Shown here one piece after another: positions 33,291 to 41,899 of a stretch of DNA of 64,000 nucleotides. The notes below the pieces were generated by a model. That model worked only from the letters and a program-made list of their open reading frames with translations. It was not told the origin of the DNA and made no database searches. Origin of the DNA: Candidatus Edwardsiibacteriota bacterium. GTDB lineage: Bacteria; Edwardsbacteria; AC1; EtOH8. Both the position numbers and the translations under genes were made by a program. Where the stretch lies: the NCBI GenBank assembly GCA_020053305.1, contig JAGVNJ010000064.1, forward strand, positions 36,111 through 100,110, read 5' to 3'. Each line of letters begins with the position of its first letter. Within the stretch, counting starts at the first letter, position 1.

Positions 33291-33707
33291 CTACTTCTTG
33301 GTCCCTGAATCTTTTAAACCTATTGAACGTTTAAACCTGTTAAACCAACCAATATTGCCTTCCGCCTTTCTCAACTTCTTAGCTTCTATTTTTTCAGCGC
33401 GCTCTTTCGCCTGCCATTCGGCCTCCTGCCGTTCGATCTCCTGCAGCAACAGTTCCACATTCTCCCGGTCCTCCATCAGCACCGCGAATTCGTCGTATTC
33501 CTTGCGGTTCAAAAAGGCCTGGACGATGGGCTGCATGAAGATCAGGGCCTGGCTGCCCACGAAGGACAGCGGCTTGACCGATTCGATGAACATGATGGCC
33601 GGGACGGTCAGCTTGCGCTTGACCACCTGGTTGGCGATCCTGGCCAGCAGTTCTTTGGCCCGTTCCGGGCCGACCTCGCTCAGGTCGGAGATGGAGGAGT
33701 TAGGCAT
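33291..33707 (-). CDS. Hypothetical protein with partial degenerate paralogue nearby
   Basis: 138 aa MPNSSISDLSEVGPERAKELLARIANQVVKRKL...; second partial copy at 34070..34171. Confidence 0.7.
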   Translation of the reverse strand: MPNSSISDLSEVGPERAKELLARIANQVVKRKLTVPAIMFIESVKPLSFVGSQALIFMQPIVQAFLNRKEYDEFAVLMEDRENVELLLQEIERQEAEWQAKERAEKIEAKKLRKAEGNIGWFNRFKRSIGLKDSGTKK

Positions 33708-33749
33708 TGATTCTACTTACTTGGTTTGTTTGATTGTTTATACTTCAGA

Positions 33750-34064
33750 TTATTCCATCCGTTTCAGCAGTTTTTGATATCGTTCCCGGTGCGATTCGGC
33801 AGTATTTTCATTGATCAGAAACGATAAGCACGTCATCTCATTCCTGGCTGCAACCCTGTCCCGATAATCCAGTAGATACTGGACCTTGAATAAACGACCT
33901 TCGGTCTGTCCGAAGGAATCATCTGCCCTGGCGAATGCGCTTATTGAATGTTCCAGCAGCGAAAGGGTGTTTTCCCTTTCCCCCCGGCCATGGGCTAGAT
34001 GGGCCAGACTCAGGTAACAATAAGCCAAGCCCAGCTTCTTCGCTTCATCTCTCTCCGTTTTCAC
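33750..34064 (-). CDS. TPR-type fragment protein
   Basis: YCYLSLAHLAHGRGERENTLSLLEHSISAFARADDSFGQTEGRLFKVQYLLDY; GTG/ATG start unclear, abuts a gene remnant; may itself be truncated. Confidence 0.5.
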   Translation of the reverse strand: MKTERDEAKKLGLAYCYLSLAHLAHGRGERENTLSLLEHSISAFARADDSFGQTEGRLFKVQYLLDYRDRVAARNEMTCLSFLINENTAESHRERYQKLLKRME

Positions 34065-34069
34065 CCGGG

Positions 34070-34171
34070 CCTGCCATTCGGCTTCTTGTTTTTAATCTTC
34101 TGCAACAGCAGTTTCTCCACCCGTTCGGGGGCTTGCCTCGTCCAGGTCGGAGATGGAGGAGTTTGGCATGA
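34070..34171 (-). pseudogene. Degenerate, internally deleted copy of the 33291..33707 gene
   Basis: Shares ggtcggagatggaggagtt(t/a)ggcat (N-term MPNSSISDL) and gcctgccattcggc(t/c)tc (EAEWQA) with 33291..33707 but lacks the middle and is frameshifted. Confidence 0.8.
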
Positions 34172-34193
34172 TAAAGGGTTTTAATAAAAGATA

Positions 34194-34222
34194 TTGACAA
34201 TCAAACTGGTTTCGAGTATAGT
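34194..34222 (+). promoter_or_regulatory. Near-consensus sigma70-type promoter
   Basis: TTGACA-17 nt-TATAGT on the plus strand, directly upstream of the small ORF at 34315. Confidence 0.75.
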
Positions 34223-34314
34223 TGCATTTTCTGACCTTAAAATGAAAATTCAAACTTGATTAACAAAAGTGTCAACTAAGTCAACCAATAATCAAAAACC
34301 AAAAGGAGAACCCC

Positions 34315-34428
34315 ATGCAAAAACTGACCAATGCCGAATTGCTAAAAGTCTTGGGCGGCGACGAAGGCACCATCCCACCCCCAACAACCGACGGCAAGAA
34401 AGAAAACCCATTCGAGCCCATCACTTAA
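34315..34428 (+). CDS. Small peptide with double-glycine-type leader; candidate RiPP/pheromone precursor
   Basis: 37 aa MQKLTNAELLKVLGGDEGTIPPPTTDGKKENPFEPIT; AAGGAG RBS 6 nt upstream, promoter at 34194, terminator at 34463; ELLKVLGG resembles GG-leader cleavage sites. Absent from the supplied ORF track. Confidence 0.75.
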   Translation: MQKLTNAELLKVLGGDEGTIPPPTTDGKKENPFEPIT

Positions 34429-34462
34429 ACTTAGGTGTTTAATTTCCTAATCAAATGCCCTA

Positions 34463-34497
34463 AGAGTCAGCCTAACCGCTGGCTCTTTCTCTTTTGT
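34463..34497 (+). terminator. Intrinsic terminator
   Basis: AGAGTCAGC-ctaacc-GCTGGCTCT (9 bp with one G-U) followed by TTCTCTTTTG. Confidence 0.8.
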
Positions 34498-34755
34498 TTA
34501 TCCACGATGTCCAACAGCTGGGCGATGTCCGTCAGGCCGCGATCCGTTTGAAAAGATATCTACAGACATTGAACACGCGTTCGATCAGACGCATGTCCTC
34601 GGTGACAGACGTCGCCCCATTCCAGCATCAGCGTTGGAAATCCACCGGCCCCTGTCCCTGATAAAGACAGTCAGAGAATTGCCGAATGGATAATCACGTC
34701 TCATCAAACGATCGTTTAAAATATTTTCAAACGGTTCAAACCTTTGTTTGATTGT

Positions 34756-36012
34756 TTACCGTACTATCAGCATCTTCCCGGTGGCCGCCTGTCCCTGGGA
34801 TTCAAGTCTGATCAGATAAACTCCGCTGGCCACCTTGCTTCCGCCGGCATCACGGCCATTCCACTGTAAACTGTAAACTCCGGAACTTTTAAACTCGTTC
34901 ACCAATGTCCGCACTTCCTGCCCCAGCAGATTATATACTTTTATGGATGCAGGGCCGCTCTGCGGCAATTGGTAGTTTATTTTATTACCCAACACTTTCA
35001 ACTTTAAACTTTGAACTTTAAACTCTGTTTGGCTTTCCTGCCCGTCTTCTATCCCCGCCGGGCCGTAACCCTCATAAATCCGCAGGCCGGAAGTATCGCT
35101 GGCCACAAAGATCCGGTTCTCTGAAACGGCAACGCCAACTGCCTGGCCCGGTGTAACATAGTGGCCCGCTTCTGCAGGCGATGCCGGATTACTGATGTCA
35201 ATTATCCGCAGACCGGGATAGTCGTCGGCCACGTAGGCAAACTTGCCCGACACCGCCACGCTCCAGGGATTTCCCGGCGTGTCGTAAAAGCCAACTTCAC
35301 TGGGCGCAGCCGGGACGCTGATGTCGATTATCCGCAGGCCGTAATCGTAATCCGCCACATAAGCATAAACGCCCGATAGAGCCACGCTCACCGCCCGGCC
35401 CGGGGTGACGCAGAACCCGGTTTCGGCAGTGTTGGCCGTGTCCGATATGTTGATTATCCGAAGCCCGGAATAATAATCTGCCACATAAGCGTAACTGCCG
35501 GAGACCGCCACGCCATAAGCATGACCCGGCGTATCGAAGAACCCGGCTTCTGTCGGGATGTTCGGATTTGATACGTTGATTATCCTCAGCCCCGGGTCAC
35601 CATCCGCCACATAAGCATATTCGCCTGCGATTGCCACGTCATAAGCGTACTGCGGAGTGTCGTAGTAGCCAACTTCGGCGGGGTTGGTCGGATCCGATAT
35701 GTTGATTACGCTCAACCCGCCAAAGCCATTCGCCACATAGGCGTAATTGCCCGAGACAACCAGACCCCATGCGTTGCTCAATGTTTCCAAGAATCCAGCT
35801 TCGGCCGGACTGACCGGATTTGATATGTTGATTATCCTTAGTCCGCCGCCTCTGTCCCCAATATAAGCATAATTGCCGGACACTGTCACGCCATTCGCAT
35901 TTCCCGGCGTGTCGCAGAACCCAATGGACCGCACGTTGGAGCTGTCCTGCGCCTGCACCAGGCCGCACAGGCCCAGCAGGGCAATGGTAAGAACCAACAG
36001 TTTTTTGGACAT
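34756..36012 (-). CDS. LVIVD-repeat secreted protein with C-terminal sorting domain
   Basis: About 8 repeats of YAYVAD..GLRIINISNP..P.E.GF.DTPG.A.GVAVSG; C-term SIKVYNLLGQEVRTLV...ASGVYLIRLESQGQAATGKMLIVR; signal peptide. Confidence 0.9.
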   Translation of the reverse strand: MSKKLLVLTIALLGLCGLVQAQDSSNVRSIGFCDTPGNANGVTVSGNYAYIGDRGGGLRIINISNPVSPAEAGFLETLSNAWGLVVSGNYAYVANGFGGLSVINISDPTNPAEVGYYDTPQYAYDVAIAGEYAYVADGDPGLRIINVSNPNIPTEAGFFDTPGHAYGVAVSGSYAYVADYYSGLRIINISDTANTAETGFCVTPGRAVSVALSGVYAYVADYDYGLRIIDISVPAAPSEVGFYDTPGNPWSVAVSGKFAYVADDYPGLRIIDISNPASPAEAGHYVTPGQAVGVAVSENRIFVASDTSGLRIYEGYGPAGIEDGQESQTEFKVQSLKLKVLGNKINYQLPQSGPASIKVYNLLGQEVRTLVNEFKSSGVYSLQWNGRDAGGSKVASGVYLIRLESQGQAATGKMLIVR

Positions 36013-40759: not shown

Positions 40760-41899
40760 CTACGACCTCCCCGGCCCGGCCATCCCCAGCGCCTTGCCTA
40801 TCCTCCGGCGGATTATCTCCACCCGCTCCACCTGGCCCTTGGCGGCGAACCTTTCGTAGAAGTCCTCGCGGCGGAACTCGCGCTCCATCTCGGAGATCGG
40901 CTTCAGCTTTTCGGCCAGCAAGGCCCCCATTTCCCCCTGATGTTCCCGCAACTCCCCGCCCCAGGCCGCGGCCGCGTCGCCGGCCAGCCTGATCAGGGCC
41001 TTGAGGGTAACGTCCCGGGTAGCCATGTATTTTTTATTGTCCCCCCAGGATTGTCCGAAATTATCCCTGGCAGCCTTGAAAAAATCCCTCACGAAACCGT
41101 AGCCCCCCGAACGGCTCCATCCCCGTCCGTCTTTAAAAAACGGCTCCGCCTCCCGGCGCTGTATCAAACGGTGTATCTCGCCGAAGATCTGCGCCTGGTT
41201 GATCCACATATCCTGCTGAGAACGTCCGCCCAGCATATTGATATGGTACCTCAGCGGGGAATCCCCCTCGGCGTAGAGATCCCGCACCAGGGTCGCAGCG
41301 TACTTCTTCTCTTGATCGGCGCCCCAGCTTATTTTTTCAAAGAGGTCTATGATGTGCGATTTATTGATCCGGGTGTGGGTGGAGTTGATGATGACGAACA
41401 TCTCGGTGGCGAACTCGGCCGCCTTGCCGTCGAAGATGACGCAGGGCACTTCGATCTTTGGGTCGGCATCCTTCTCCGTAAGATGGAAATGCAGGCCGGC
41501 CAGGCGGTGCTGGCCGTCTATGATCAGGAATTTATCGCCCGGCTCCTCCAGATCCCCGGTCCGCTCGTGTCCGGCCAAAGGCCTGAAGGCCAGCTCCTCG
41601 GGGGTAAAAAGCAGCACCGCTCCCGGTATTATAGGCTGGTCGGTCTCGTTGCGATAGAAATCGCGTATCTGCCGGACCTTGCGGCGGTTCAACTGGCGCT
41701 GAAAGGCCCCGGAACTTTTCTCTATGTTCATGATGAACTGCTCCACCTCGTCGGCTTGTCTGGGCGGCTCCCCACCCACGCTCTCGCCCCGCTCCCCGTA
41801 GAACCGGGACATGAAGCGCACCTTGTTCAAAAGATCTCCGGCCGGGTAGCTGACGAAGTAAAACTCTGCGTCCTTCTGGCGCATTCGCAGGGCTAACAT
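40760..41899 (-). CDS. DGQHR-domain protein (DndB-like)
   Basis: KFLIIDGQHRLAGLHFHL, VPCVIFDGKAAEFATEMFVIINSTHTRINKSHIIDLF, typical of the DGQHR domain. Confidence 0.87.
   Translation of the reverse strand: MLALRMRQKDAEFYFVSYPAGDLLNKVRFMSRFYGERGESVGGEPPRQADEVEQFIMNIEKSSGAFQRQLNRRKVRQIRDFYRNETDQPIIPGAVLLFTPEELAFRPLAGHERTGDLEEPGDKFLIIDGQHRLAGLHFHLTEKDADPKIEVPCVIFDGKAAEFATEMFVIINSTHTRINKSHIIDLFEKISWGADQEKKYAATLVRDLYAEGDSPLRYHINMLGGRSQQDMWINQAQIFGEIHRLIQRREAEPFFKDGRGWSRSGGYGFVRDFFKAARDNFGQSWGDNKKYMATRDVTLKALIRLAGDAAAAWGGELREHQGEMGALLAEKLKPISEMEREFRREDFYERFAAKGQVERVEIIRRRIGKALGMAGPGRS

Follow-up and report, generated by a model that had tools for sequence, protein, structure and literature searches.

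The peptide gene and its expression signals

The stretch of DNA analysed here (the window; 64,000 nucleotides, C68:36111-100110 of the genome G000, a 99% complete assembly of 77 contigs with a total of 2.59 Mb) carries on its plus strand a tiny gene of 37 codons plus TAA (34315-34428) that encodes the precursor peptide MQKLTNAELLKVLGGDEGTIPPPTTDGKKENPFEPIT. The gene is preceded by a plus-strand sigma-70 promoter (34194-34222; TTGACA at 34194-34199, a spacer of 17 nucleotides and TATAGT at 34217-34222; 11/12 match) and by the ribosome-binding site AAGGAG (34303-34308), which is read directly from the DNA 6 nt upstream of the ATG at 34315. The sequence confirms the original prediction in the positions of all three elements, promoter, ribosome-binding site and 37-codon frame. 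Downstream lies a plus-strand intrinsic terminator (34462-34497; -14.3 kcal/mol), whose presence and T-rich tail stood as predicted, while the stem, announced as 9 bp, proved to consist of 10 pairs (34462-34487), one of them G-U, with TCTCTTTTGT coming after it.

The precursor is composed of a 15-residue double-glycine (GG) leader, MQKLTNAELLKVLGG (34315-34359), with L-12, E-8, L-7, V-4, G-2 and G-1, and a core, DEGTIPPPTTDGKKENPFEPIT (34360-34425), which is predicted to be exported, the putative cleavage site being set by the leader consensus. As had been claimed, the core comprises 22 residues and contains no Cys; its net charge is -3.

The promoter is the top sigma-70 match within the 3.5 kb scanned and was equalled by 0/200 shuffles of its own upstream region. 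The leader pattern M..L...[ED]L....GG is found once at a short-ORF start in the real window versus once in 30 Markov-simulated 64-kb windows, corresponding to a chance expectation of ~0.03 per window. A chance ORF is ruled out by homologues together with the codon test, and a structured RNA was rejected on the grounds of no Rfam match at E 0.1 and transcript folding that is no better than that of shuffles (z -1.27). Assignment to a known family likewise failed, with nothing above cut-off for the peptide in NCBIfam or Pfam. The 37-residue gene is real; it belongs to a family of very small peptides that had escaped annotation so far and that is found in the uncultured group Candidatus Edwardsbacteria (UBP2). 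Its description as the only well-supported plus-strand gene of the window is consistent with a check of five of the larger plus-strand ORFs, which lack Pfam matches and overlap minus-strand genes.

Genomic setting

The gene resides in a segment of ~1 kb (33713-34757) that is missing at the same junction in three genomes of the same genus; the interval from one flanking gene (33291-33707) to the other (34756-36012) measures ~1045 bp in the window versus ~95-109 bp in these genomes. A 16-bp perfect direct repeat, TTTGTTTGATTGTTTA, borders the extra DNA, with a left copy at 33725-33740 and a right copy at 34743-34758, both on the plus strand. It may have been inserted here or lost elsewhere; the short form is common to the three sisters. 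On the minus strand, the segment contains a decayed second copy of the gene 33291-33707 (34032-34169; two fragments with 50% and 63% protein identity) and a short ORF (33750-34064), the start of which overlaps the decayed copy and the remainder of which is TPR-like by eye only. This ORF was not taken for a receptor, given the lack of a Pfam match and a merely weak similarity to a TPR protein encoded on contig C23. A dispersed repeat was also rejected, since, beyond the peptide itself and the duplicate of the neighbouring gene, no further copy of the insert exists in the genome. Elsewhere in the window, a minus-strand gene (40760-41899) encodes a DndB-like protein (Pfam E 1e-9), and a DUF1186-like gene is located downstream of it.

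The peptide family

Within a comparison set of ten genomes of Candidatus Edwardsbacteria, the peptide search revealed close orthologues of the window peptide in two sister-genus genomes, G007 (64% identity, E 1.4e-8) and G004 (68% identity, E 2.8e-7), both located inside arrays. A profile search yielded 29 matches with E up to 0.007 (close to 30 with E up to 0.02), which are distributed over four genomes and count the window gene itself; the weakest of these are uncertain (e.g., G007 C78 at E 0.007), and one weak extra match in G002 (C5:408956, E 0.55) has a good leader. Family members are arranged in arrays of eight (G004 C47) and five (G007 C178) genes, in short arrays adjoining an exporter gene in G002 and G000, and, in several cases, as lone units with near-perfect promoters. 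Promoters at seven lead genes match the consensus at 11-12 of 12 positions, being perfect (TTGACA/TATAAT) at those in G000 C23, G002 (three) and G004 C86, and 11/12 at the window gene and in G007 C144. AAGGAG/AGGAG-like sites precede most family members, and the majority of the lone genes are followed by a terminator.

A check on reading-frame conservation in relatives, put forward with the original prediction, came out in its favour, the frame being kept in the G004 and G007 orthologues. When its codons were compared with those of these two orthologues, the window gene gave pS 0.68-0.71 and pN 0.25-0.29, indicative of purifying selection (Fisher p 8e-4 and 1e-4; two comparisons, ~111 sites, two related genomes). 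The core tail is under stronger constraint than the leader, because DGKKENPFEP has a pN of 0.04 (versus pS 0.56-0.75) and the leader one of 0.22-0.23.

The family cores are 16-42 aa long, have net charges of -2 to -9 (mean -5) and lack Cys in 23/27 cases. Among them are orthologous groups whose motifs return in more than one genus, namely DGKK[ED]NP[FY]EP (window, G004, G007), TGHFxGVDGLS (G002, G004, G007), MPRRQPVWE and GAHSFHEI (both G004, G007) and RxxSYxxYY (G000, G002, G007). Two G002 precursors have a doubled core motif (TGHFKGVDGLDSETGHFMGVDGLST; VYKPPVQPNDVYKPPV); tandem repeats of core motifs (TGHFxGVDGL; VYKPPV) are present in the GG precursors at L069 and L129 (G002 C5). Adjoining both peptide arrays, an ABC ATPase and a fusion of an ABC-2 permease with an M1-type peptidase are encoded (L022:4496-9058 and L021:4740-9422), which could take part in peptide trimming or reflect mere synteny.

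The exporter and its co-occurrence with the peptides

Substrates of C39-ABC exporters, i.e., ABC transporters with a peptidase domain, share the leader consensus L(-12)xxxE(-8)L(-7)xxxxG(-2)G(-1) (PMC6959990). The window leader fits it exactly (L4, E8, L9, G14, G15) and has V at -4. Of 27 family members, 26 have L-12, 22 have E-8, 26 have L-7 and all have G-2; the GG pair is complete in 26/27, and V or I occupies position -4 in 26/27.

In G000, the peptidase domain PF03412 has a single match above the Pfam cut-off (C23:12183-12545), which belongs to an exporter of 729 aa with the domains C39, ABC_membrane and ABC_tran. The protein is similar to PCAT1 (4ry2) over residues 9-722 and to ComA (8hf4) over residues 10-721, and the catalytic residues Q11, C17, H91 and D107 are all present (triad roles as in PMC6959990). 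An HlyD-family gene comes next after the exporter gene, a TPR gene is also among the scanned neighbours, and three genes for 38-aa GG peptides adjoin it in divergent orientation. The exporter module is 88.8% identical over 4053 bp between G000 and G002.

Full-length C39-ABC exporters occur in G000, G002, G004 and G007 only among the ten genomes, and GG peptides were found in 4/4 genomes with an exporter versus 0/6 without one (Fisher p 0.005, kinship ignored). Extra C39 matches in short frames (L032, G002 C5:249964, 164 aa; L031, G006 C4:12882, 187 aa) are too short for an ABC transporter. As relatives of the peptide are confined to the sampled genomes that carry the pump, the window gene most likely encodes a secreted peptide; we regard its export as a GG peptide as very probable. 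The proposed supply of an export partner in trans gained support as well: the genome-wide check for a GG-peptidase transporter and paralogues found exactly one C39-ABC exporter in G000, on another contig, with three paralogues of the peptide beside it. Since the peptide arrays and the exporter are also located on separate contigs in G004 and G007, action in trans appears to be normal in this group.

In the tree, the four exporters pair up as (G004, G007) and (G000, G002); Bacteroidota are among the nearest remaining branches and are the closest relatives outside the group. Such a pattern is to be expected of an old component that several lineages have lost; the exporter may also have been gained later. 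The family profile gave only weak matches in 12 genomes with related exporters.

Comparison with known systems

Concerning the leader consensus (L-12, E-8, L-7, GG), the three domains, the catalytic residues and the full-length similarity (4ry2, 8hf4), the system resembles the PCAT/ComA exporters (PCAT1-CtA and ComA-ComC; PMC6959990); it differs in that precursor and exporter are on separate contigs, that the core is much shorter than CtA and that there is no known receptor. A second parallel is provided by EbfG1-4 and PteB of Synechococcus elongatus, where GG proteins have a role in biofilm formation (PMC4997328). There, likewise, several small GG proteins that are not known antibiotics go with a single C39-ABC exporter in a Gram-negative cell; however, this likeness is one of description, and the biofilm role is known from Synechococcus elongatus. 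In Treponema denticola, clustered bacteriocin-type signal proteins are constitutively expressed and secreted, with no killing seen (PMC11879956). These tandem GG proteins have interspersed lipoprotein genes, as in the G004 C47 array, but measure 167-614 aa versus 31-57 aa here.

The GG-leader natural product precursors of Bacteroidetes (GG-Bacteroidales type of NCBIfam) have the same KxLxxxEL leader form; in contrast to these, the peptides described here match no NCBIfam model at cut-off.

Proposed function and alternative explanations

We favour the explanation, at a probability of roughly 70%, that the window gene encodes a GG-leader precursor which is exported in trans and whose core is likely to act unmodified as a signalling or recognition peptide. 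The gene would be transcribed alone from its strong housekeeping promoter, and the leader (L-12, E-8, L-7, GG) would dock on the C39 domain of the sole peptidase-containing ABC exporter of the cell, supplied in trans from contig C23. The exporter would then cleave after GG and, helped by its HlyD partner and presumably also by a TolC-type channel, release the acidic 22-residue core DEGTIPPPTTDGKKENPFEPIT, which most likely would work outside the cell as it is, with a target that probably reads the conserved tail DGKK[ED]NP[FY]EP.

The original prediction had offered a RiPP, a bacteriocin or a pheromone precursor. The RiPP option, in which the Thr/Asp/Glu/Lys-rich core would be cross-linked or otherwise modified before export, is suggested by the leader length and its Bacteroidetes-like form and by a Cys-rich, lanthipeptide-like GG precursor of MAG-300 (L097:4559-4738) that adjoins a related C39-ABC exporter. 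Yet LANC_like is absent from all four carrier genomes (LanC-like cyclases being what the genome-wide maturase search covered), and most cores are devoid of Cys. Furthermore, the scanned neighbours of the G000 exporter are HlyD and TPR genes, and no maturase was noted among these or beside some of the lone peptide genes, so that modification was left unsupported and is considered unlikely. The combination of short, acidic, mostly Cys-free cores and missing LanC therefore lends good support to an exported, probably unmodified peptide. Such a peptide might kill or inhibit related cells as a small bacteriocin or microcin, for which leader and exporter type, as in class II bacteriocins and microcins, and the arrays of paralogues with differing cores would speak. 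This option found little support and is about as doubtful as modification: the cores are acidic, 16-42 aa long and rich in proline, glycine and aspartate with no evident amphipathic or hydrophobic stretch, no recognised immunity gene is among the neighbours of the lone peptide genes, and the best match to the NCBIfam bacteriocin models (13.4 bits versus a cut-off of 46, with no Pfam match) is far too low. In addition, different genera share the core tail, a conservation that is not typical of arms-race toxins.

A structural or matrix role in the manner of the EbfG biofilm proteins, rather than signalling, is somewhat less improbable than either. Biofilm formation in Synechococcus depends on EbfG1-4, GG-motif proteins that leave the cell through a C39-ABC transporter (PMC4997328), and core motifs of the present family recur in surface lipoproteins and a large secreted protein; against this stand the very short cores, which strongly diverge among themselves. 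Least probable is an unexpressed relic brought in by the 1-kb insertion, as the decayed gene fragments in the surrounding DNA could suggest, since no element of the gene, from promoter and ribosome-binding site through ORF and leader consensus to terminator, is damaged, and purifying selection is evident against the orthologues. What is left of the three original options as the best guess is the pheromone-like signal. A signal or recognition peptide is favoured because the tail does not change from genus to genus, the motif is repeated within two of the precursors, a genome can hold several cores and the promoters are housekeeping-like; chosen by elimination, a signalling role of the core taken by itself falls a little short of even odds.

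With regard to a possible receptor, TPR_12 proteins are encoded at a distance of no more than 2 kb from a number of lone peptide genes; those by GG peptide genes are located at L158:13490-17272, L166:6249-9629, L164:8500-9000, L161:10480-11421 and L024:9200-10681. Two TPR_12 proteins contain AAA_16, with the architectures guanylate cyclase-AAA-TPR and AAA-TPR-BTAD. The excess near peptide genes (4/38 versus a background of 4/189, p 0.03) is only a lead to a receptor, because it was noticed post hoc.

Taken at the level of the genomes, one exporter for dispersed lone genes and arrays makes up a coherent peptide-export system in an uncultured candidate phylum; the literature searched on Candidatus Edwardsbacteria, judged by title, reports no system of such kind. 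The set of almost 30 precursors, for which an exporter can be named and cleavage sites are predicted, is compact and testable; should the cores prove to be signals, the system would clearly exemplify peptide communication in a group of Gram-negative type.

Core motifs shared with exported proteins

The last eleven residues of the window peptide, GKKENPFEPIT, recur without a mismatch at the mature N-terminus of a lipoprotein (CGKKENPFEPITSS) in three genomes of the same genus, in which the mature protein starts with CGKKENPFEPIT; the lipoprotein of the window genome itself reads CGKKDNPFEPAT. Lipoproteins matching the tail at 11/11 and 9/11 residues are encoded at L007, L008 and L009 (each at 1501) and at L162:9788. 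The 100% matches of residues 27-37 in sister frames of 600 aa were initially suspect as artefacts, an idea that was discarded because they represent this lipoprotein N-terminus, with 29/33 bases of the coding DNA identical between the window and the G002 lipoprotein gene. A further case is the third GG peptide on C23 of G000 (L024:8150-8857), which has an in-frame continuation past its stop codon; the post-stop sequence matches an internal region of a large secreted G004 protein, with 55% identity over 175 aa (E ~4e-54 to 6e-54). The tail of this peptide, AYGRATSYSSNY, aligns with AYCRGISYAAYW of the secreted protein, and the 13 residues WAYCRGISYAAYW are also the end of a lipoprotein within the G004 array. 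For the other core motifs, no convincing source was seen in the DNA searched.

The shared motifs reflect either a convergence of short linker-like motifs or the capture of exported-protein pieces by the leaders, and they hint at a possible route of origin for such peptides. We consider it improbable that GG-leader genes of these bacteria are fusion cassettes by which short pieces of other exported proteins are captured and then released as free peptides. If they were, the free peptides would copy segments of surface or secreted proteins: the window tail GKKENPFEPIT would copy the mature start of the lipoprotein (CGKKENPFEPIT), and the C23 peptides would carry a segment of the large secreted protein, the remainder of which is still in frame behind the stop codon.

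On G004 C47 (L021:1682-4159), a tandem duplication of lipoprotein genes, three in number plus part of a fourth, is interspersed among the GG peptide genes; the encoded lipoproteins end in DWxYxRxISYxAYW. For this arrangement, Treponema denticola may be compared (PMC11879956).
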